Source of the DNA: Streptococcus lutetiensis
Lineage (GTDB): Bacteria; Bacillota; Bacilli; Lactobacillales; Streptococcaceae
DNA: 64,000 nucleotides
NCBI RefSeq assembly: GCF_900475675.1
Contig: NZ_LS483403.1
Coordinates: 1,488,001-1,552,000, forward strand
Direction: 5' to 3'
Both the position numbers and the translations under genes were made by a program. Positions 16,615 to 27,880 of the stretch are shown in pieces (position 1 is the first letter of the stretch; every line of letters begins with the position of its first letter). The notes under the pieces are model-generated. The model was given only the letters and a program-made list of their open reading frames with translations. It was not told where the DNA came from and did not search any database.

Positions 16615-18025
16615 GGCTCTATAATTTCTGTAGTGGGTAACTCCACTGTGGAATTATAGGGCTTTTTGAATATACACAAAAAGTCCCATATGACTTATAA
16701 TGAAAAGCGACCAAACTCACATTAGAAAGCATCATATGGAACAACTCTATCATACTACACAATTGATTGGAATTAAAGACAAAAATATCACGTTGAACAA
16801 AGTTTTGAAACACAAGACACACATTGAGATGATAGCTACACTGGACTACGCTCCTGGAAACTGTAATCACTGTCAGGGAAAACAGATAAAATATGACTTC
16901 CAAAAGCCATCGAAAATACCATTTCTTGAGGTGGCTGGCTTCCCCAGTCTTATTAGGCTCAAGAAACGGCGTTTTCAATGCAAGAATTGTCGTAAGGTAA
17001 CCGTCTCTGAAACCAGCTTGATACAGAAAAACTGTCAAATCTCTGAACCTCTCAGACAGAAGGTCGCGCAAGCCTTGGTCAATCGTCAAGCCTTAACACA
17101 CATTGCTCAGGATTTAGCGATTTCAACCTCTACCGTACACCGAAAACTCAAGGAATTCACTTTCAAAGAGGACTTCTCTCGTCTGCCTGAAATCCTCTCC
17201 ATCGATGAGTTTTCGTATCAAAAAGGAAAGCTTGCCTTCATTGCACAGGATTTTGAGACCAAGAAAATCATCACCATCCTTGAGAATCGGACACAAACAA
17301 CCATTCGCAATCATTTCTTCAGGTATTCTAAAGAGGCTAGGAACAGCGTGAAAGTCGTTACCGTTGATATGTCTGGCAGTTACATCCCAATGATTCCAAA
17401 ACTCTTTCCTAACGCTAAGATTGTTATTGATAGATTTCATATCGTGCAGCACATGAGCCGTGCTCTTAATCACACACGTATTCAACTTATGACACAGTTC
17501 GACAAGAAATCTTTAGAATATCGTGCCCTCAAATACTACTGGAAATCCGTGCTGAAAGACAGTCGTAAACTCTCTCTAAACAGCTTTCGTTCAAGGACTT
17601 TTGGAGAAACGCTCACACCAAAAGAATGTTTGACCGAGATATTCCACCTTGTCCCTGAGTTGAAAGGGTATTATGACCTCTACCAGTTCCTACTGTTCCA
17701 CCTGCAAGAGAAAAACGCTGACTACTTCTTTGACTTGATTGAAGAAGCCTTACCACATCTCAATCAAACCTTTAAAACAGCTCTGAGAACTATCCTTCAC
17801 CACAAGCAACACGTCATAAACGCTATTGAGCTTCCTTATTCTAACGCCAAACTGGAGGCAACCAACAAACTCATCAAAGACATCAAGCGTAATGCCTTTG
17901 GATTCAGGAACTTTGACAACTTTAAAAAACGTATCTTTATCGCTTTAAACATGCAAAAAGAGAAGACGCATTTCGTCTCCTCTCGTGCTTAGCTATAAGT
18001 CACCCACTACAGTTGACAAAGAGCC
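16615..18025 (+). mobile_element. ISL3-family insertion sequence (1411 bp)
   Basis: Complete element. The left end GGCTCTATAATTTCTGTAGT and the right end (reverse strand) GGCTCTTTGTCAACTGTAGT start terminal repeats that match at 20 of 27 positions. The flanks carry a perfect 8-bp duplication GTTTTTTT at 16607-16614 and 18026-18033, the size expected for ISL3 transposition. It carries one transposase gene reading away from rpsR's direction. Related to the IS1167/IS1193 group by transposase sequence features; the exact IS name was not determined. Confidence 0.93.
16736..17992 (+). CDS. ISL3-family transposase
   Basis: 418-residue DDE transposase. From the ATG at 16736 (MEQLYHTTQLIGIKDKNI) it shows an N-terminal zinc-binding segment CNHCQGKQ...CKNCRK, a central HTH (ALTHIAQDLAISTSTVHRKL near 118-137), and the catalytic region: SIDEFS near 158, VTVDMSGSY near 206, VIDRFHI near 229 and KLEATNKLIKD near 384 containing the last acidic residue. 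Full length, no lesion, so the element may be active. The upstream ATG at 16700 adds 12 residues not typical of the family. Confidence 0.93.
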   Translation: MEQLYHTTQLIGIKDKNITLNKVLKHKTHIEMIATLDYAPGNCNHCQGKQIKYDFQKPSKIPFLEVAGFPSLIRLKKRRFQCKNCRKVTVSETSLIQKNCQISEPLRQKVAQALVNRQALTHIAQDLAISTSTVHRKLKEFTFKEDFSRLPEILSIDEFSYQKGKLAFIAQDFETKKIITILENRTQTTIRNHFFRYSKEARNSVKVVTVDMSGSYIPMIPKLFPNAKIVIDRFHIVQHMSRALNHTRIQLMTQFDKKSLEYRALKYYWKSVLKDSRKLSLNSFRSRTFGETLTPKECLTEIFHLVPELKGYYDLYQFLLFHLQEKNADYFFDLIEEALPHLNQTFKTALRTILHHKQHVINAIELPYSNAKLEATNKLIKDIKRNAFGFRNFDNFKKRIFIALNMQKEKTHFVSSRA

Positions 18026-18050: not shown

Positions 18051-18290
18051 TTAGTCTTCGTTTACGAATGGCATAAGAGCCATAACGCGAGCGCGTTTGA
18101 TAGCTGTTGTTACTTTACGTTGGTTTTTAGCTGAAGTTCCAGTTACGCGACGTGGAAGAATTTTACCACGTTCTGAAACGAAACGGCTAAGAAGCTCAGT
18201 ATCTTTGTAATCAACATATTCAATTTTATTAGCTGCGATGTAATCAACTTTTTTACGGCGTTTGAATCCGCCACGACGTTGTTGAGCCAT
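18051..18290 (-). CDS. rpsR: 30S ribosomal protein S18
   Basis: 79-residue S18, which pairs with S6 on the 30S platform. Typical sequence [20 protein letters not shown] at the N terminus and [20 protein letters not shown] in the core. Third gene of rpsF-ssb-rpsR, with AAAGGAG before the ATG. Its transcript now runs into the ISL3 element 25 bp past the stop codon. Confidence 0.97.
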
Positions 18291-18350
18291 GTTTTATTCT
18301 CCTTTATATTATTGTTGTTTCAAGTTTAACACTTGAGGTGTCCATATACA

Positions 18351-18857
18351 TTAGAATGGAAGATCGTCATCTGAAATGTCCATTGGGTTTGAATTACCAA
18401 ATGGGCTTTCGTCACGACCAAAGTTAGGTGTTTGTTGTGAAGGTTGTGATGAGAAACCACCATTAGAAGATCCACCAAATGATGAATTGTTGTTAAATTC
18501 ACCGTTGTAAGAACCACCTGATTGACCTTCACGTGTAGCACGACTTTCCAAGATTTGGAAATTATCTGCAACGACCTCAGTTACGTAAACACGTTGGCCT
18601 TGTTGGTTTTCATAGTTACGAGTCTGAATACGACCAGTAACACCAACCAATGTGCCTTTTTTAGCCCAGTTAGCCAAGTTTTCAGCTTGCTGACGCCAAA
18701 TAACACAGTTAATAAAATCTGCTTCGCGTTCACCATTTTGATTCTTGAAGTTACGGTTTACAGCAAGTGTAAATGTCGCAACTGCTTGATTAGATGGTGT
18801 GTAACGGAGTTCTGCATCGCGGGTCATGCGACCGACAAGTACTACATTATTAATCAT
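18351..18857 (-). CDS. ssb: Single-stranded DNA-binding protein
   Basis: 168-residue OB-fold protein that coats single-stranded DNA during replication, repair and competence. OB domain covers residues 1-110 ([20 protein letters not shown], then [20 protein letters not shown]). A flexible Gly/Ser/Asn/Gln-rich linker follows, and the chain ends with the acidic partner-binding tip DISDDDLPF. Located between rpsF and rpsR as in other firmicutes. Confidence 0.97.
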
Positions 18858-18868
18858 AAAATACCTTC

Positions 18869-19159
18869 TTACGCGTCAAGTTTAACGATCATGTGACGAA
18901 GAATGTCACCGTTGATTTTTGAAAGACGGTCGAACTCGTTAAGAGCTACAGCATCTTCTGCTTCAACGTTAACAACGTGGTAAAGTCCTTCACGGAAATC
19001 TTTGATTTCATATGCAAGACGACGTTTTTCCCAGTCTTTTGATTCAACAACAGTTGCACCATTGTCAGTCAAGATAGAGTCAAAGCGTGCTACCAAAGCG
19101 TTTTTAGCTTCTTCTTCAATGTTTGGACGAATAATGTAAAGAATTTCGTATTTAGCCAT
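18869..19159 (-). CDS. rpsF: 30S ribosomal protein S6
   Basis: 96-residue S6, binding partner of S18. Sequence [18 protein letters not shown] at the start and the [19 protein letters not shown] segment near 45-63 are diagnostic. First gene of the operon, 11 bp before ssb, with AAAGGAGG 10 nt before the ATG. A hairpin-containing leader and a good promoter lie upstream. Confidence 0.97.
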
Positions 19160-19304: not shown

Positions 19305-20376
19305 GGAAAGTTCTAAAATGAAGTTAGCCACCTAAGGGTATCAAAAAACATCTCAGAGAGATATAATTGTAATCACCACAACAACAATTAGAAAGACTCT
19401 GAGATGCAAAACTATTATACACCAAAAAGTAAACATTTAACACTAACTGAACGTAGAATGATTGAACGTTGGCTTCAAGAAGGGCTCTCAAATCGTGAAA
19501 TCGCTAGGAGATTAGCTAAAGCTCCTCAAACCATTAACAACGAGGTCAAACGTGGTCAGGTTAGACAACAAGTGCGTAAAGGAAAATTTGAAGTGATCTA
19601 CTCAGCTGATTTTGCTCAAAAAGCCTATCAAAACAATCGCAAACGTTCTGTTAAACAAGCCTCCCTAACCAAGGGACTCAAAGAAAAGATAACTCACTAC
19701 ATCGAACAGAAATACTCTCCCGAGATGATGGTAAAGTCAAAAGGGATACCTGTTCCCATCTCCACCATTTACTACTGGATTTATCATGGACACTTAGGAT
19801 TGACCAAGGCTGATATGCTTTATCCTCGACAAGAGAAAGCTAAGAAAAAGCATGCTAGTCCCCATTTTAAGCCAGCTGGAAAGTCTATTGAGGAACGACC
19901 AGAAAGCATTAATAAGCGTGAGAATATCGGTGATTTTGAAATTGATACGGTTATTCAAACACGGGCAAAAAACGAGTGTCTGTTGACTCTAACCGATAGA
20001 AAGAGTCGTTATCAAATCATTCGAGTCATTCCCGATAAGTCCGCGGTTTCAGTCAATCAAGCTCTGAAAGCAATCCTCAAGGATTATCAAATGAATTCTA
20101 TCACAGCTGATAACGGGGCTGAGTTCAGTCGTTTAGCGGAAGTTTTTGACCCTACTCATATCTATTATGCTCACCCGTATTCTTCTTGGGAGCGTGGTAC
20201 TAATGAGAATCATAATAGACTCATCCGGCGTTGGTTGCCTAAGGGAAGCAAAAATGCGACTCAACAACAAGTCGCATTTATTGAAAACTGGATTAACAAC
20301 TATCCAAAGAAACTATTCAATTATAAATCTCCTAAAAAGTTTTTACAGACTGGCTAATTTGAACTTGAAATTTGGC
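19305..20376 (+). mobile_element. IS30-family insertion sequence (1072 bp)
   Basis: The boundaries are set by a perfect 13-bp direct repeat TCCTAAATTTTTT at 19292-19304 and 20377-20389. Immediately inside, the ends form imperfect inverted repeats (GGAAAGTTCTAAAATGAAGT versus GCCAAATTTCAAGTTCAAAT), agreeing at about 17 of 26 positions and converging on TTAGCCA in both. One transposase gene fills it. IS30 elements often duplicate only 2-3 bp, so the 13-bp repeat is notable; it may be a true long duplication or partly a preferred target. Confidence 0.85.
19404..20357 (+). CDS. IS30-family transposase
   Basis: 317-residue transposase with IS30 features: N-terminal HTH LTLTERRMIERWLQEGLSNR plus EIARRLAKAPQTINNEVKRG near 31-50, then the integrase core with GDFEIDTVI near 176 (first Asp), ITADNGAEFS near 233 (second Asp) and RGTNENHNRLIRRWLPKGS near 271 (catalytic Glu). 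Intact, so potentially active. Confidence 0.95.
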   Translation: MQNYYTPKSKHLTLTERRMIERWLQEGLSNREIARRLAKAPQTINNEVKRGQVRQQVRKGKFEVIYSADFAQKAYQNNRKRSVKQASLTKGLKEKITHYIEQKYSPEMMVKSKGIPVPISTIYYWIYHGHLGLTKADMLYPRQEKAKKKHASPHFKPAGKSIEERPESINKRENIGDFEIDTVIQTRAKNECLLTLTDRKSRYQIIRVIPDKSAVSVNQALKAILKDYQMNSITADNGAEFSRLAEVFDPTHIYYAHPYSSWERGTNENHNRLIRRWLPKGSKNATQQQVAFIENWINNYPKKLFNYKSPKKFLQTG

Positions 20377-20777: not shown

Positions 20778-21125
20778 TTAATTATCCTTAAAAATTATTT
20801 TTAATTGATTAATCGTTTCTTGGTAGTTTTTAGAGTTCATTTGCGGTCGTTTAAGTCCCTTTTGACTGAGGTATTTACCAACTAGGTCACCATGACGTTT
20901 GAGGTACCTGCTACTTGTTATAACAAAGATATAGATAACAATAGCAAGGCAGATTGGAATACCGATAAACGGTGCAATATATAACGCATTGAGCTGCATG
21001 GCATCGGAAGTGGTCTTATCTTCACCATCAGCATTTGGAATGCGATGCCCGCGTACCAGTAGACGTTGGGTATTTATCCCATAAGGTGTACATGTCACTA
21101 AAGTCAGATAATCTTGATTGGGAAG
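20778..21125 (-). pseudogene. Class C (pilus) sortase, C-terminal remnant
   Basis: C-terminal 115 codons of a pilin-polymerising sortase. The conserved end of the catalytic domain is present: PNQDYLTLVTCTPYGINTQR with the active-site Cys in TLVTC, the catalytic Arg in LLVRGHRI, then the C-terminal membrane anchor (LYIAPFIGIPICLAIVIYIFVI) and a basic tail. The whole N-terminal half including the lid and catalytic His is missing. The DNA instead joins a pilin/adhesin gene in another frame at about 21118-21126, so this is a deletion scar, not a gene with a start of its own. Confidence 0.88.
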
Positions 21126-21991
21126 ACTGAAATTGTTCCTCCATCGACAATTTGTGCGGTTACCATTTCATGTTCAACACCTGCATTATCAGTGTACTTG
21201 AAGGTTATATTATGAGTAGTTGTTGATCTCGGACCACCAACTTTATTAAGATTTGCTTTTGACTCAGAAAGATTGCTTGATGTTACCAAGGCATAAGCTG
21301 AAAATTGACTATTATCAAAAGAAACTGATGTAATCTTATGATCGATTTCTTTAACATCTTTTTGCGAAATATTTTCTTGTGAACCATCATCAGGAAAATG
21401 TAAAACATCAAAGTTATCTTTGGCATCCATAGCTTCTTTCGGTATGATTGTCACCTTAACGTCAGCTTTTGGTTCAACTTTTTCACCTTTTGATTCAAAA
21501 GTAATGTCATAGAAAAGGACACTATCAATCGTCTTTTCTGTTAAAGAGTTTTTGACTTTTTCATAATTTGATTGATAAGCTTCATCATCAGTTTTGATTT
21601 CTTTAACAGTCAAGCTTGTATCTTTAGGCAATTGCGCATCCGCATTAACATCAGCTGTAATCATATAATCTTGATTAGTTGCTGTTAATGTTGTTGCCAG
21701 TGTAATTAAGTCATTCTCAGTTGATTCTGTCTGAGAAGTATCTGCTTCTTGTGAACTTTCAGTTGCAGAGCCTAGATTGCTATCAGAATCTCCCAGAGCT
21801 GGAAGGCTTGGTGGCAATTGACTACTTTGTTCTACTTCAACACCAGGTTCTTCTCTAGCTCTTTCCATATCTAATGTGATAGCAGGCAAGATTAGAAGGT
21901 ATGTCGTTACCAGAGCTACCATTACTGCAAGGAAAGTCGCAAGTTTTTTATGCTTTTTAATTAAATTACTTTTTCTAAAAAAATTTCCCAT
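21104..21991 (-). pseudogene. Pilin/adhesin N-terminal remnant fused to sortase tail
   Basis: First ~290 codons of a large surface protein. A long signal peptide (KKHKKLATFLAVMVALVTTY...LPAITLD) is followed by a Ser/Glu/Gln-rich low-complexity stretch (45-90) and a beta-rich domain with KVTIIPKEAM and FSAYALV. It ends at SVFP, where reading passes into sortase-C DNA out of frame and stops at IKII. No repeat region, LPXTG motif or anchor remains. The ATG at 21991 has GGAGG 13 nt upstream. Similar heads occur in accessory pilins/adhesins of streptococcal pilus loci; exact family not assigned. Confidence 0.85.
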
Positions 21992-22046
21992 CGGCTCTCA
22001 CTTTCCTCCCATCCTAAAACACAGTGAATAAGCTTCGATAATACTT

Positions 22047-22643
22047 TTAATTTAGAGTTCCAATATCTGATAAAGACCAGATTCTAACAATTAGTTTACC
22101 AACTAATTGTTCATCCGAAACCGCACCGACAGAAGCATTTCGCGAGTCAATAGAAACTTTACGGTTATCTCCTAAAACAAAGATACGATCTTCTGGAACT
22201 TAGTAAGGGAACTTGATGGTTATCTCACCATAAGCCTTGTTCTCGATGTAGGGTTCATTTATTTTCTTGTCATTGACGTAAACCGTACCATCTTTTGTGA
22301 TGTTGACCCAGTCGCCAGATTCAGCAATGACACGTTTAACTAAGATATTATTATTATAAAACGCGACGATGTCTCCTATCTTAAAGTGATTACTCTTAAC
22401 AGCTAATACGATATCCCCGCTTTCTAGCATCCCCTTCATGGATTTCCCATAGATCCTGAGGGTTGGAAGGTAAAGCATAGCTACCAAAATCGCAAAGGCG
22501 ACTACTACAATTAACATAAAAACCGTGCTTCTTATCTTCTCGGTAAAAAGTTTACGGTATTTCGCTTTTTTATATAACTCTTCAATCTCACTGGTTGTGG
22601 GAAGAGTAATTTCGTTATCCTTTTTCATACTCCGCTTCTCCAT
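22047..22643 (-). pseudogene. Pilus-linked signal peptidase I, nonsense codon
   Basis: Signal peptidase I homologue of the kind found in pilus loci. One membrane segment (FMLIVVVAFAILVAMLY) is followed by catalytic-Ser box YGKSMKGMLESGD and catalytic-Lys box VKRVIAESGD. Translation stops at a TAA (22202-22200) after IKFPY, but the same frame continues VPEDRIFVLGDNR...SIDSRNASVG to a proper end at 22047, giving about 195 codons. The likely change is CAA to TAA. The catalytic pair survives; the conserved GDNR/SRD box is cut off. Best start is ATG 22628. Confidence 0.88.
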
Positions 22644-22884: not shown

Positions 22885-23038
22885 ATAAATCGCCTCGATT
22901 CTTCTTATTATTAAGCGTTCTTCTTTAATCTCATTTTAGTACTTTTGACCTTTATTTTTTAATTATTTTCTGTAGATTTTATTAAAAAATTTCGGCATTT
23001 TTGGTTTTATGAAAAAATTTCTTATGAATACAAAAAAG

Positions 23039-23063
23039 AAGCTGAGAATTTTTATCTCAGCTT
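23039..23063 (-). terminator. Terminator closing the micro-ORF array
   Basis: AAGCTGAGA / TCTCAGCTT stem with an AT loop, followed on the minus strand by CTTTTTTG. It sits about 50 bp after the last peptide ORF and separates the array from the pilus remnant. Confidence 0.85.
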
Positions 23064-23110
23064 CAAAAAATTTTTTCATATGTTATCTAACATACCATTC
23101 TCATAAGGAG

Positions 23111-23167
23111 TTAGGCTGTTAGATTATTATCTCCGTTTTTATAGCGATTTAAATTCATTTTCAGCAT
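23111..23167 (-). CDS. RYKNGD micro-peptide 6 (18 aa)
   Basis: Encodes MLKMNLNRYKNGDNNLTA. GGAGG lies 10 nt before the ATG at 23167; stop TAA. The core L-N-R-Y-K-N-G-D aligns with the other copies, with its own codons (CGC TAT AAA AAC GGA GAT). It has a five-residue tail after the core. An alternative overlapping start at TATATG gives an 11-residue out-of-frame peptide and is not preferred. Confidence 0.75.
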   Translation of the reverse strand: MLKMNLNRYKNGDNNLTA

Positions 23168-23247
23168 TGTACATATACCTCCACGAGTTTTTTTACCTCC
23201 ATGAGTTTTTTAGTCACTACTTTTTTACATTGGTATCACTCCTTTAG

Positions 23248-23301
23248 CTATTTTATGCAACTAGCTAAAGTATCACCATTTTTATATCTTGCTACGTTCA
23301 T
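23248..23301 (-). CDS. RYKNGD micro-peptide 5 (17 aa)
   Basis: Encodes MNVARYKNGDTLASCIK. GGAGG is 6 nt before the ATG at 23301. Shortest N terminus of the set: the core starts directly after Met. Core codons are AGA TAT AAA AAT GGT GAT. After its stop, a second site AAAGGAGTGATACCA leads to ATG-TAA, an aborted start. Confidence 0.78.
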   Translation of the reverse strand: MNVARYKNGDTLASCIK

Positions 23302-23347
23302 AAGATACCTCCATTAATTGAAAATACTCACATAACAACGATAATAA

Positions 23348-23461
23348 TCAAATTTTTTCTGTTTTTTTGATAGGGCGATTGACTCGTCGCCATATCTTTT
23401 TTGAGTCTCCATTTTTGTAACGGCCTACATTGATTGCTTTCACATCTATTACAACTTTCAT
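23348..23461 (-). pseudogene. RYKNGD micro-peptide 4, degenerate copy
   Basis: Open frame of 37 codons starting MKVVIDVKAINVGRYKNGD and continuing with a basic tail (SKKIWRRVNRP...). No Shine-Dalgarno precedes the ATG at 23461. Inside it, ATG-TG-AAAGCAATCAAT looks like the ATG-TTG-AAA start of copies 2 and 3 with one T lost, so the native start was probably ruined by a 1-bp deletion. Core codons match copy 3 except GGC for GGT. It may be silent. Confidence 0.6.
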
Positions 23462-23652
23462 TAAAAAATTAAAAGCTTTTTTTCAAACATGGAAGCAATA
23501 TGATTAGAAGCCCTTTCGATTACTACTGTTACTAGCAACAAAATCAACCGGTATTATTTCTTGCGCTAGCTATTTCTAATCGTTCACTTCCAATTAATAT
23601 CTTCATCTAAAATGTGACATCACTCCTTCATTGACCTAAATTCAACTAGTTG

Positions 23653-23694
23653 TTAGTCTCCATTTTTGTAACGACCTACATTCATCATCAACAT
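23653..23694 (-). CDS. RYKNGD micro-peptide 3 (13 aa)
   Basis: Encodes MLMMNVGRYKNGD, ending exactly at the core Asp. GGAGG is 8 nt before the ATG at 23694. Core codons are GGT CGT TAC AAA AAT GGA GAC. After its stop comes AAGGAGTGATGTCA and a short frame ending in ARNNTG, possibly another decayed unit. Confidence 0.78.
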   Translation of the reverse strand: MLMMNVGRYKNGD

Positions 23695-23772
23695 AAGACG
23701 TTCCTCCGATGTTTCTTTTGTTACAATTTTTTTGAGATTTGAGGTATAAATCTTTATGGCTAATCAAAGTGA

Positions 23773-23814
23773 CTAATCACCATTTTTATAGTGTCCTAAG
23801 TTTAATTTCAACAT
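23773..23814 (-). CDS. RYKNGD micro-peptide 2 (13 aa)
   Basis: Encodes MLKLNLGHYKNGD, the only copy with His instead of Arg before Tyr, and again ending at the core Asp. GGAGG is 8 nt before the ATG at 23814; stop TAG. Core codons are GGA CAC TAT AAA AAT GGT GAT. Confidence 0.78.
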   Translation of the reverse strand: MLKLNLGHYKNGD

Positions 23815-23852
23815 AAGCGCCACCTCCATAACGTAAAGTTAACTGTGCCTAC

Positions 23853-23912
23853 TTAACTCCGACTAGAGACTTTATCACCATTTTTATACCGGGCAACATG
23901 TGGCTTCATCAT
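23853..23912 (-). CDS. RYKNGD micro-peptide 1 (19 aa)
   Basis: Encodes MMKPHVARYKNGDKVSSRS; first ORF of the transcript. AAGGAGG lies 11 nt before the first ATG at 23912 (14 nt before the second). Core codons are GCC CGG TAT AAA AAT GGT GAT. It has a short basic/Ser tail. Confidence 0.78.
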   Translation of the reverse strand: MMKPHVARYKNGDKVSSRS

Positions 23913-23965
23913 AAGAATTGTTACCTCCTTATTCCGTTTCTTCTGTCATCCTTCTTTACACTTTT

Positions 23966-23995
23966 ATTATAATGTATCCGCTTACCTTTTGCCAA
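23966..23995 (-). promoter_or_regulatory. Promoter of the micro-ORF array
   Basis: Minus strand TTGGCA (23995-23990), 18 bp, TATAAT (23971-23966), 54 bp before peptide 1. It is divergent from the mutY promoter about 90 bp away. Confidence 0.7.
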
Positions 23996-24061: not shown

Positions 24062-24078
24062 GCTAAAATGGAAACATG
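24062..24078 (+). promoter_or_regulatory. mutY extended -10, leaderless start
   Basis: TGCTAAAAT (24061-24069) is an extended -10; only 6 nt (GGAAAC) separate it from the mutY ATG at 24076, so the transcript would begin at or next to the start codon. Confidence 0.5.
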
Positions 24079-25224
24079 ATTAATTTAACTGATTATGGGA
24101 TTAAGATGTGGGACGATGAAAAAATCGCTTCTTTTCGCCGTACCCTGCTCAATTGGTATGATAATGAAAAACGCGACCTGCCTTGGCGCAGAACTAAGAA
24201 TCCTTACTTTATATGGATTTCTGAAATTATGCTGCAACAGACACAAGTGGTTACGGTAATCCCCTATTATGAACGCTTCTTAGAATGGTTCCCAACGATT
24301 GAAGATTTAGCCAATGCTCCTGAAGAGAAATTGCTAAAAGCTTGGGAAGGACTAGGTTACTACTCTCGCGTACGCAATATGCAAAAAGCTGCTCAGGAAA
24401 TCATGGAAAAATTTGATGGTGTCTTTCCTGATAATCACAAGGATATTCTTTCTTTAAAAGGAATTGGCCCTTATACGGCTGGTGCTATCGCAAGTATTGC
24501 CTTCGGTTTGCCTGAACCTGCTGTTGATGGGAATGTCATGCGCGTGATGGCGCGCCTTTTTGAAGTCAATTATGATATTGGTGACCCCAAAAACCGCAAA
24601 ATTTTTCAAGCGATTATGGAAATTTTGATTGACCCAGAGCGCCCTGGAGACTTCAACCAAGCACTGATGGATCTGGGGACTGATATCGAATCAGCCAAGA
24701 ATCCTCGTCCAGATGAGTCTCCGATTCGCTTTTTCAGTGCAGCTTATTTACACGGGACTTACGATAAATATCCGATTAAACTTCCTAAGAAAAAGCCCAA
24801 GCCGCTACAACTTCAAGCTTTTGTCATTCGAAATAGCAAAGGTGATTTCTTATTAGAAAAAAATCTTGATGGGCGCTTGCTTGGCGGCTTCTGGTCATTT
24901 CCAATCGTGGAAATAGACTTTATCGGACAGCAGCTAGATTTGTTTGAAAAATATACCACTTCCCTTCAAACCGTCTCACAAAAAGCACTTTTCGAAAGAA
25001 ATTATCAAGTCGCTCCTGACTGGACTAAGCGAGAATTTAACCTAGTCAAGCACACCTTTAGCCACCAAAAATGGACTATTGAACTTCTTGAAGGATTAGT
25101 GAATTCAAACAAAGTAACTACAAGTAAAGAACTCCGCTGGGTCTCACAAGACCAACTTCAAGATTATCCCATGGCTACACCACAGAAGAAGATGCTAGCA
25201 GAATATCTTAAGAAAATTGATTAA
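24076..25224 (+). CDS. mutY: A/G-specific adenine glycosylase lacking Fe-S cysteines
   Basis: Removes adenine mispaired with 8-oxoguanine. The 382-residue protein has the HhH-GPD domain with catalytic Glu in SEIMLQQTQV near 49-58, hairpin LSLKGIGPYTAGAIAS near 126-141, catalytic Asp in AVDGNVMRV near 157-165, and a C-terminal NUDIX-like 8-oxoG domain (GRLLGGFWSFP). The family's usual Cys-X6-Cys-X2-Cys-X5-Cys cluster should follow at about 205-222, but the segment reads GTDIESAKNPRPDESPIRFF and the protein has no cysteine at all. Cluster-free MutY is known in some lactic acid bacteria. The first ATG fits streptococcal homologues (xxLxxYGIxMW). Confidence 0.96.
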   Translation: MINLTDYGIKMWDDEKIASFRRTLLNWYDNEKRDLPWRRTKNPYFIWISEIMLQQTQVVTVIPYYERFLEWFPTIEDLANAPEEKLLKAWEGLGYYSRVRNMQKAAQEIMEKFDGVFPDNHKDILSLKGIGPYTAGAIASIAFGLPEPAVDGNVMRVMARLFEVNYDIGDPKNRKIFQAIMEILIDPERPGDFNQALMDLGTDIESAKNPRPDESPIRFFSAAYLHGTYDKYPIKLPKKKPKPLQLQAFVIRNSKGDFLLEKNLDGRLLGGFWSFPIVEIDFIGQQLDLFEKYTTSLQTVSQKALFERNYQVAPDWTKREFNLVKHTFSHQKWTIELLEGLVNSNKVTTSKELRWVSQDQLQDYPMATPQKKMLAEYLKKID

Positions 25225-25466: not shown

Positions 25467-27880
25467 ATGTAATTAGTTGCTATTGTTGGGACAAATTCAA
25501 CTCGTTCAACAAACCGTAAGTTGTTGAAATTTATGGCTAAGCATTTTGCTGATGTGGCCGACATTGAGCTGCTTGAAATCAAGGATTTGCCTGCCTTCAA
25601 TGAACCTGAGGATAAGATTGCTCCTGCTGTTGTTGCTGTCTTTGCTCAAAAAATTGCTAGCGTAGACGGGGGTTATCATCGCTACACCTAAGTATGACCA
25701 TACCATTCCAGCACCACTATCTTCTGCTCTTGAATGGATTGCCTGCACAAGTCGCGCGCTAATCAATAAACCAACCATGATCGTGGGAGCTTCTCTTGGA
25801 GCACTAGGAACATCACGCGCACAACTTCACCTGCATCAAATTTTGGACGCCTCAGGCGTTAATGCCGTTGTCATGCCTGGTAGTGAATTTTTACTTGGGC
25901 GTGTCCAACATGCCTTTGATGAAAATGGCGACCTCAAAGACCAAGGAACCATTGATTTCTTAGAATCTTGCTTCTTCCGCTTTATTCACTTTGCCAATAT
26001 TGCTAATCAGCTCAACCAACCTGAAGACGTACGATTTGAACCCGGTACTTATCATGTCACTACTGTCGGTCACAATGGTGATTTACCGATGTCTGTGACT
26101 TTGTCAGAGGATCGCATTGAAGCTATAGATATTGATTCTTCTGGTGAAACTGGTGGTATTGCTGACGTGGTCTTCACTCGTATTCCAGATGAAATCATCG
26201 AAGGGCAAACTTTGAATGTCGATGCCATTTCTGGAGCTTCAGTCACTTCAAAAGGTGTTCTAAATGGAGTCGCGCGTGCGGTTCGTCAAGCTGGTGCTAA
26301 TCCCGATGCTCTTCGTTCACGTCCAAAAGCACCATCAGCTCTAGACAAAGAAGATAAGACTTATGACACTGACCTTGTCATTGTCGGCGGTGGTGGTGCT
26401 GGACTTACTGCAGCTGCACGTGCCCTTCAAGCTGGAAAAAAGTCATTCTTGTTGAAAAATTCCCAGCTGTCGGCGGAAACACTGTTCGTGCTGGTGGGCC
26501 AATGAATGATCCTAACCCTGCTTGGCAATATACATTTCCTGCTAATCCTGGTGAAGCGTATAATTTACAAGAACTTCACGACATTGATGAATCAACTATC
26601 GATCCTGAATTCTTGTCTGATTTCCGTTCTCTTAAGACCGAAATTGAAGAATACCTCAAAGACCCAACTTACCTCTTTGACTCAAAACTTCTCTATCGTA
26701 TCCAAACTTATCTTGGTGGTAAACGCAAAGACCTCAAAGGTCACGAAATTCACGGAAACTACGAACTCATTAGCGTCTTAACAGAACGTGCTCTTGAATC
26801 TGTTCGTTGGCTTGAAAATATCGGTGTTGAATTCTTACGCGATGAAGTAACTATGCCAGTTGGTGCTATTTGGCGTCGTGGTCATAAACCAAAAGTTTCG
26901 ATGGGAGTTACTTATATCGCTGTCTTGAAAGATTTCGTTTTGAAAATGGCGGTATTATTCTAACAGATACCCAAGTTAAAGAACGCGTTGTGACCGATGG
27001 TATCATCACAGGTGTCAAAGGTAGCGGACGCAATGGACAAACTATTACCGTCAATGGTAAAGATGTGATTTTAACAACAGGTGGATTCGCAGCCAATACT
27101 AAAATGCTTCAAAAATACAACACTTACTGGTCAGAAATTGATGATAATATTGCCACTCCAAATACGCCTGCTGCAACTAGGGACGGTATTTTACTTGGTC
27201 AATCTGTCGGCGCCGACCTTGTCGGTATGGGCTTTAGCCAAATGATGGCAGTATCTGACCCAGTGACTGGTGCACTTTTCACCGGTCTTCAAGTGCCTCC
27301 AGCAAACTTTATCATGATCAACACCAAAGGTAAACGTTTTGTCGATGAATACGGTAGCTGTGACCAATTATCACAAGCGGCTATTGACAACGGAGGTCTC
27401 TTCTATCTTATCGCCGATGAAAATATCAAAGAAACAGCCTACAATACCAGTCAAGAAAAAATTGATGCTCAAGTTGAAGCAGGTACCCTCTTTAAGGCTG
27501 ATACCTTGGAAGAATTGGCTGAGCAAATCAACATTGACCCAGCTACTTTGGTAGAAACAATCACCAATTACAATTCTTACGTTAACACTGGGCATGACCC
27601 TGAATTTGATAAAGGTGCCTTTGACCTTAAAGTCGAAAAAGCACCATTTTACGCGACACCACGTAAACCAGCCACACACCACACCATGGGTGGTTGGAAA
27701 ATCGATACACATGATCATATTATTAACGAAGATGGCAAAGTTATTAAAGAACTCTTTGCCGCTAGTGAAGTCGCAGGTGGTCTTCACGCAGGTAAACATC
27801 TCGGTGGTAACTCATTAACAAACATCTTCACATTTGGACGTATCGCAACTGATACAGCTATCAATGAATATCTTGATTAA
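25467..27880 (+). pseudogene. NADPH-FMN reductase / flavocytochrome fumarate reductase fusion, broken
   Basis: Remnant of an ~800-residue soluble flavoprotein: NADPH-dependent FMN reductase domain (VAIVGTNSTRSTNRK...), FMN-binding domain with GASVTSKGV motif, then FAD-dependent fumarate-reductase domain ([18 protein letters not shown], later [20 protein letters not shown]). Expected role is NADH-linked fumarate reduction in the cytosol. Lesions: codon 2 is TAA (25470-25472) directly after the ATG; a G-run at 25668-25672 has one base too many; the A-run at 26436-26441 is one short; a further 1-bp loss lies near 26931-26941. Four independent hits make expression of an intact enzyme impossible. 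A cre-like AAAACGTTTTC lies upstream near 25399. Confidence 0.93.

Follow-up and report, generated by a model that had tools for sequence, protein, structure and literature searches.

The question raised by a 64,000-nucleotide stretch of the Streptococcus lutetiensis chromosome (contig NZ_LS483403.1, positions 1,488,001 to 1,552,000; hereafter the window) is what could be gained from keeping, side by side, six tiny open reading frames (ORFs) whose peptides share one short core. The six micro-ORFs (23111-23912) lie on the minus strand of the region 23030-23995, between a promoter and a terminator, and have the common core [NH]xx[RH]YKNGD. An initial annotation had proposed them as a real, unrecognised array, and all six were found again in the window; the array itself thus stood, but the annotation had missed a catabolite-responsive element (cre)-like box in the promoter, the synteny of the locus with mutY, a rule that places the Asp of the core at codon 13, and copies of the micro-ORF in other families and in phages. 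The reading favoured here, and held tentatively, is that the micro-ORFs form a family of leader peptides which would act on the ribosome, and that the array would be a detached form of the family under the control of CcpA.

The Asp of the core is codon 13 in micro-ORF 1 (MMKPHVARYKNGDKVSSRS, 23853..23912), micro-ORF 2 (MLKLNLGHYKNGD, 23773..23814), micro-ORF 3 (MLMMNVGRYKNGD, 23653..23694) and micro-ORF 6 (MLKMNLNRYKNGDNNLTA, 23111..23167), and codon 10 in micro-ORF 5 (MNVARYKNGDTLASCIK, 23248..23301); the fourth member is a degenerate copy, a 37-residue ORF containing NVGRYKNGD (23348..23461). A Shine-Dalgarno (SD) match of 5-6 nt stands 6-11 nt from the ATG in five of the six (AGGAGG in micro-ORF 1, GGAGG in micro-ORFs 2, 3, 5 and 6) and none precedes the fourth; the initial annotation had likewise counted five ORFs with such a site, and it was also right that two peptides end exactly at the Asp (those of micro-ORFs 2 and 3), and because micro-ORF 2 reads HYKNGD, already in its list, the Arg of the core is not invariant. 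The transcription unit that it had drawn was likewise recovered, with a promoter TTGGCA-18-TATAAT at 23995-23966 which has 11 of 12 consensus positions and an intrinsic terminator at 23064-23038 formed by a 10-pair stem and a T run. Within the promoter spacer is the cre-like box AGGTAAGCGGATACA (23973..23987, minus strand), with 9 of 10 specified positions. The YKNGD codon pattern (GGG excluded) occurs six times in the 1.79-Mb chromosome, always within the array, and a reversed control of the pattern has no match in the same chromosome. Three of the micro-ORFs represent paralogues which, counting the window, have 14 (O1, micro-ORF 1), 13 (O5, micro-ORF 5) and 9 members (O6, micro-ORF 6). MIYLNPQRYKNGD and MLKMNLNRYKNGD are also sequences of the family. 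The core of copy 4 is intact in two relatives (L049 and L322; L and G numbers are our handles for loci and genomes) and has become RYKSGD in L037 and RYKNGY in L047, so that one array member looks as if it were decaying.

Selection on the peptide itself can be separated from the bias of the search by counting hexamers. In the regions of the 30 arrays examined, the sense strand contains 121 perfect RYKNGD hexamers, 15 with one mismatch and 2 with two mismatches, as against 0, 0 and 2 on the antisense strand; this is the unbiased check, since YKNGD was imposed by the search pattern and zero nonsynonymous divergence (pN) there is no evidence. The Arg, which was not imposed, is R in 120 of the 122 array ORFs and is written with six different codons. 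Position -4 is N in 86 of these ORFs, H in 16, D in 10, T in 4, M in 3, C in 2 and Y in 1. The ratio of nonsynonymous to synonymous divergence (pN/pS) is 0.13-0.52 in the N-terminal parts, and in the tails after D it is 0.80-1.00 in three paralogue groups and 1.33 in O3 (6 codon pairs); because R is kept while the tails look unconstrained, what matters seems to stop at D. The synonymous sites of YKNGD are near saturation, with pS about 1 in O1 and O5. Decay of the cores at neutral rates in relatives, which the initial annotation had named as a sign that the array was spurious, was not found when the sequences were compared across the arrays.

An SD of at least 4 nt precedes 110 of the 122 array ORFs. 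With the start that was chosen, 71 of them have the D at codon 13, and 87 have an ATG at that place; the D is also codon 13 in 25 of the 37 single-copy ORFs that have an SD-supported start, and in the paralogue M[NHC]xARYKNGD the D is at codon 10. Tails among the SD-bearing array copies run from 0 to 17 residues. Conservation at the peptide level up to a putative arrest point, combined with a free tail, is what would be expected of a ribosome-arrest leader peptide. Several other interpretations of the pattern were rejected or set aside: a CRISPR-like or selfish repeat was rejected on the peptide-level conservation of the core, a tRNA-starvation sensor (suggested by position -4 being mostly N, H or D and once Y, all NAY codons) was set aside since the residue order is fixed, and a functional role for a conserved tail TLASCxK was set aside on the tail pN/pS of 0.80.

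The array is not peculiar to S. lutetiensis. When the YKNGD codon pattern was scanned in 147 Streptococcus genomes, with an array defined as at least two cores within about 1 kb, arrays were found in at least 28 of them (the window, 19 loci and 8 more that were fetched), and the 30 arrays examined consist of these together with S. uberis L076 and S. thoraltensis L115, which were reached by a mutY search; S. ictaluri L055 was not counted separately from G124 (L044). In the window, the divergent neighbour that marks the locus is mutY (24076..25224, plus strand; Pfam HhH-GPD and NUDIX_4), and a divergent mutY lies within 0.8 kb of the first core in 28 of the 30 arrays, the exceptions being L317, with rpsF only, and L319, with neither. 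Downstream, rpsF is present within the stretch at hand in 15 of the 30, and other genes often stand between it and the array; the genes downstream of the array are variable. The 5 kb upstream of mutY contain no Y[KR]NG[DE] on the divergent strand in the named loci of S. suis, S. mitis (of which one locus, L072, has only 138 bases there), S. oralis, S. cristatus and S. sanguinis, nor in those of S. infantis, S. timonensis, S. xiaochunlingii, S. merionis and S. ovis. Within arrays, the distance from the R codon to the next start is 53-494 nt (median 116), and the spacers differ in sequence as well as in length.

Regulation of the arrays can be predicted from their promoters. The 14 aligned first-ORF regions, the window among them, have a common promoter, and a scan with the cre consensus WTGNAANCGNWNNCW places a cre-like box with at least 9 of 10 specified positions inside the spacer, at offset 7 or 8 from the start of the -35 element, in 25 of the 30 arrays; when the promoter stretch of those 25 is shuffled base by base, no more than 11 of 300 shuffles score as high. 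The five arrays below 9 of 10 are L039 (6; promoter 8 of 12), L044 (7), L051 (7), L040 (8) and L041 (8), of which L051 was probably scanned at the wrong stretch because an RYRNGD copy sits further upstream. Since the box occupies the promoter spacer in 25 of 30 arrays, repression by CcpA is predicted. At the other end, 21 of the 30 have a terminator-like hairpin no further than 450 nt from the last ORF. Neither mutY nor rpsF is mentioned in the main text of the chromatin immunoprecipitation paper on CcpA of S. pyogenes (PMC8359418), a species that was not checked for the array. Among non-array copies, 8 of 54 have an upstream cre box of at least 9 of 10, compared with 2.9 expected from shuffles, and because two of the eight are the Streptococcus loci L245 and L032 there is no strong cre case outside the genus. 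These two are single micro-ORFs, MLKMNMSRYKNGD[YN], with the cre-like box about 180-200 nt upstream; a phosphotransferase-system-like gene, recognised by eye, lies about 0.84-0.95 kb downstream of the micro-ORF in L265 and L032.

Outside Streptococcus the micro-ORF is found mostly singly. The codon pattern of the hexamer was matched in 13 of 398 genomes of the phylum, 14 of 198 of the order, 37 of 199 of the order of G343, 6 of 28 of the family of G343 and 7 of 76 of the family of G690, but many of these matches are not micro-ORFs and arise by chance or inside long ORFs. In the phylum scan, one of the 15 non-own matches was a genuine micro-ORF (L202) and the rest were rejected; in the order scan, six of the 14 matched genomes (G683, G668, G595, G609, G586 and G713) had no genuine micro-ORF; and in the viral scans (64 stretches, then 7 and 7) L141 and L218 were judged genuine and L220 a chance match. 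L141 carries MIYLNPQRYKNGDIDCSI directly behind an XRE gene (HTH_3) and ahead of a secreted-type gene, and the second phage-like contig, L218, carries MNYCIIRSMNPQRYKNGD ahead of another secreted-type gene; the XRE protein of L141 matches 28 phage records at under 60% identity. Some single copies stand on phage or mobile-looking DNA, and the genomes that carry the micro-ORF belong to further families of the order or lie elsewhere in the phylum.

A link between the single micro-ORF and secretion was evaluated on 56 non-array core ORFs, a table that includes weak cases (for example L268, L279, L288 and L312). By script, 19 of the 56 have no SD-supported start, several of which look genuine, and 11 of the remaining 37 have no ORF within 160 nt, although ORFs of the secreted type do follow L239, L284 (second copy), L291 and L296 when a longer stretch is considered. 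Of the 26 that are left, 23 precede a signal-peptide-like gene, usually about 80 nt downstream, and of the three scored otherwise L280 and L283 are probably mis-started. Control ORFs of the same loci are signal-like in 12 of 84 cases with an SD start, which is the start rule used for the 26, in 16 of 84 with any start in the first 60 codons, and in 10 of 84 with the longest start, which is an unfair comparison; the enrichment has a p-value of at most 2e-10, which, like the other p-values given here, is optimistic because copies from related genera are not independent, and the signal-peptide rule and its cut-offs are our own. The 26 downstream proteins form 23 clusters, 20 of them signal-like. 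Upstream, the genes vary by eye (XRE-like, response-regulator-like, a kinase-like end, a large protein, proteins ending in INSYVR or INSYIR, or none), so that the micro-ORF and the secreted gene stay together while the upstream gene differs.

Several of these loci have features of their own. In L236, L238, L283 and L285, upstream genes of unequal length share an INSYVR or INSYIR C-terminus just before the micro-ORF. In L141, L233, L278, L280, L281, L300 and L304, the gene no more than 80 nt upstream of the core encodes a small XRE-like regulator with a Cys near the C-terminus, an assignment confirmed as HTH_3 for L141 and made by eye for the other six. Two tandem micro-ORFs stand ahead of one secreted-type gene in L284 (also fetched as L313), and this pair is an intermediate between the single and the array forms. 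In L261, the genes behind one micro-ORF encode first a secreted protein and then a large, membrane-like protein together with an ABC ATPase; the secreted protein has no Pfam or NCBIfam match and no plasmid match.

Two features of the single copies bear on where the micro-ORF might act. The Arg of the core is AGG in 42 of 50 single cores, against a background of 0.20 in the ORFs of the same loci (p 1e-20; Arg codons with C as the third base were outside the search pattern). Counted over distinct cores it is AGG in 38 of 46, including the misframed L289, which is cut at a contig end; where an Arg precedes Tyr in the ORFs of these loci, its codon is AGG in 11 of 47. The distance from the core to the downstream ATG in 27 leaders (60-115 nt, median 82; the misframed L289 included) is independent of the length of the tail (rho 0.22, p 0.27), as it is when L289 and L279 are removed (25 leaders, median 81, rho 0.16, p 0.45). 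The distance from stop to ATG falls with tail length (rho -0.72 for the 27 and -0.68 for the 25), which is an arithmetic consequence of the first result and not separate evidence. The AGG bias and the spacing speak for an action of the ribosome at the core rather than for the making of a free peptide, without proving it.

Under the reading that is tentatively preferred, the array would be a stand-alone transcript, predicted to be repressed by CcpA, with several members of the family M-x(3)-[NHD]-x-x-R-Y-K-N-G-D, and the conserved nascent peptide would cause pausing of the ribosome on the RYKNGD codons or close to them. In the other genera, such a pause would act in cis and determine the expression of the secreted-protein gene beginning some 80 nt further on. 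Streptococci would have detached and multiplied the unit, and once the preferred sugar is exhausted transcription of the array may begin; its effect would then be exerted in trans, through the tying up of ribosomes or of a factor that recognises the same nascent chain. What the sequences establish is the family in its two architectures, with its ORFs, SD sites, peptide-level conservation, promoter with cre-like box, synteny and the secreted-type genes behind single copies; translation in the cell, control by CcpA, pausing, the tie to secretion and the trans role are inferred from them. The trans role is needed because a purely cis leader role fails to explain the Streptococcus array, which in most cases is closed by a terminator of its own and is not followed immediately by any constant gene. 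That fact weighs against the proposal, as do several others: the spacing between array ORFs is loose (53-494 nt, as above); a nascent chain of 10-13 residues is short for a classical arrest peptide; the array copies as a set are not AGG-biased, their paralogues using CGG, AGA, CGT or CGC and keeping their own codon (CGG in 13 of 14 in O1, AGA in 12 of 13 in O5), so that the codon argument rests on the single copies; and no common RNA hairpin hiding the downstream SD was seen by eye in 31 folded leaders, on which ground a hairpin of the erm type was rejected. In addition, all three distant homologues of the L218 protein (on a Priestia plasmid, a Paenibacillus plasmid and in a Bacillus phage) lack a micro-ORF in the 350 nt upstream, so the effector can occur without it, and an obligate partner or immunity function of the micro-ORF was rejected.

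The same evidence must be set against other explanations. The micro-ORFs may instead yield peptides that stay free inside the cell and bind to a single conserved protein, be it a regulator or a translation factor, with the arrays raising and diversifying the dose and the single copies merely co-transcribed with the effector; this is a possibility that we rate only a little lower. Arrays that stand alone behind a promoter of their own, 21 of the 30 also having a terminator-like hairpin, would suit it, and so would the conservation of the peptide, the maintenance of distinct paralogues over species and the seven XRE-like genes with a C-terminal Cys close upstream of the core, but no class of regulator is constant by eye, the tails of SD-bearing array copies vary from 0 to 17 residues, peptides this short are expected to be degraded quickly, and the mostly AGG Arg of the single copies would be unusual if the peptide were itself the product that counts. 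If the peptides were exported, as cell-cell signals or leaderless antimicrobials, the secreted proteins and ABC transporter of some single-copy loci, such as L261, would find a place, and signalling was among the roles suggested by the initial annotation; the peptides, however, are hydrophilic, mostly of 10-20 residues and without a signal or leader, their C-terminal tails vary, and no transporter, receptor or modifying enzyme is constant by eye, which makes this quite improbable. Of the roles that the annotation had offered, that of a regulatory leader peptide agrees best with the data, since outside Streptococcus the single copies mostly precede secreted-type genes. Those of an exported signal and of a modified-peptide precursor are unsupported, because the ORF lists, read by eye, show no enzyme, transporter or receptor common to the loci and the peptides have no leader or signal sequence.

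The strong promoter with its cre-like box and the terminator are also what a CcpA-regulated small RNA acting by base pairing would have, translation of the micro-ORFs then being secondary, and the 5' half of O1 (for example window 23853-23912) is conserved at synonymous sites too (CAT, GTC and CGG each in 13 of 14); the YKNGD codons of the same paralogue vary, however, to the near saturation reported above, R is kept across codon families and the inter-ORF spacers vary in length and sequence, and we consider this explanation improbable. The arrays could finally be functionless leftovers of repeated insertions of a micro-ORF with its cargo at a mutY hotspot, an idea which the variable genes downstream of the array, the changed copy 4 cores of two relatives and the single copies on mobile-looking DNA would fit, but to which we give hardly any credence, since the sampled arrays have kept their cores, SD sites and promoter and the peptide-level conservation already largely refutes it.

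Comparison with databases and literature indicates that the family is apparently undescribed. Peptides of at least 20 residues have no match in NCBIfam and Pfam (0 of 3) or in PHROGs (0 of 4), the typical 13-mers being too short for these scans, and Rfam gives only matches below its gathering scores; the SpF39 small RNA, at 25.3 bits against a gathering score of 60, was rejected on score (F39 is placed at 972498-972606 in PMC12323649). In the PubMed Central full-text library, the string YKNGD occurs in four unrelated papers, RYKNG, NPQRYKNGD and MLKMNL are absent, and such arrays are not described in the titles and abstracts of the matches listed there, a library that leaves out most subscription literature. 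When the ORF lists of the window and of 19 arrays were inspected by eye, no regulator of the SHP/Rgg or RNPP type was recognised, the neighbours not all having been searched for domains, and no constant neighbour of the kind that modifies or transports ribosomally synthesized and post-translationally modified peptides was seen by eye at 20 arrays and the tabulated single copies, a distant enzyme being outside the scope of that inspection.

Among known systems, the closest in form are the regulatory leader peptides that work by ribosome arrest, such as the erm and cat attenuators, TnaC, SecM and MifM. The family resembles them in being a short ORF with a good SD which, in the single copies, would lie in the leader of another gene and encodes a conserved peptide with a free tail after the key residue. 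It differs in having no common attenuator hairpin, in placing the same core before unrelated secreted proteins and in forming arrays that are detached, are driven by a promoter of their own and mostly end in a terminator. The streptococcal small-peptide quorum systems (SHP/Rgg, ComS/ComR, Phr/Rap) also involve tiny unannotated ORFs, but the arrays have no export signal, occur as tandem copies and have a hydrophilic conserved core. Lactococcin-972-type bacteriocin loci consist of a secreted protein, a large membrane protein and an ABC ATPase, an order which L261 alone repeats behind its micro-ORF; its secreted protein has no family match, as noted, and elsewhere the single copies stand before secreted proteins of other kinds, the 26 downstream proteins forming 23 clusters. 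Small RNAs controlled by CcpA include SR1/SR1P of Bacillus subtilis, which has a dual function, and we know of no resemblance of the array to them; another is the glucose-limitation RNA of Staphylococcus aureus, RsaI. That S. aureus RNA is cited in PMC8359418. The array, like these RNAs, is a stand-alone transcript with a catabolite switch, here predicted, and like SR1 it encodes a small peptide, but its tandem, nearly identical cores of 10-13 codons differ from them, the two being set apart without a comparison of sequences.

The surroundings of the array in the window have further features. Between the array and rpsF, at 20778-22643, are a signal-peptidase S26 gene and a surface-protein-like gene, the latter apparently shortened or split relative to longer ORFs in L037 and L039. 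Transposase-like ORFs, which we take to be ISL3- and IS30-like, lie at 16700-17992 and 19404-20357 on either side of rpsR-ssb-rpsF (18051-19159), and three consecutive plus-strand ORFs at 25777-27880 resemble pieces of one flavoprotein gene, possibly a pseudogene.

A strongly conserved gene family seems to have escaped notice on account of the small size of its members, mostly 10-20 codons. It brings together three things that are not usually joined, namely a catabolite control predicted for streptococci, the leaders of genes for secreted proteins in other parts of the phylum, and cargo of phages, and the codon-13 rule together with the codon bias makes action through the nascent chain directly and cheaply testable. 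A broader view, which we think unlikely but state for its consequences, is that the micro-ORF represents a kind of genetic element not known before, a "ribosome address" of 13 codons that would travel with secreted-effector genes across the phylum and its phages, of which the sugar-gated streptococcal array would be a tunable set of pause sites with a global role at the exhaustion of glucose. If it is true that the arrays act in trans, streptococci would possess a form of post-transcriptional control by micro-translation, a mode of control which is, to our knowledge, without precedent.
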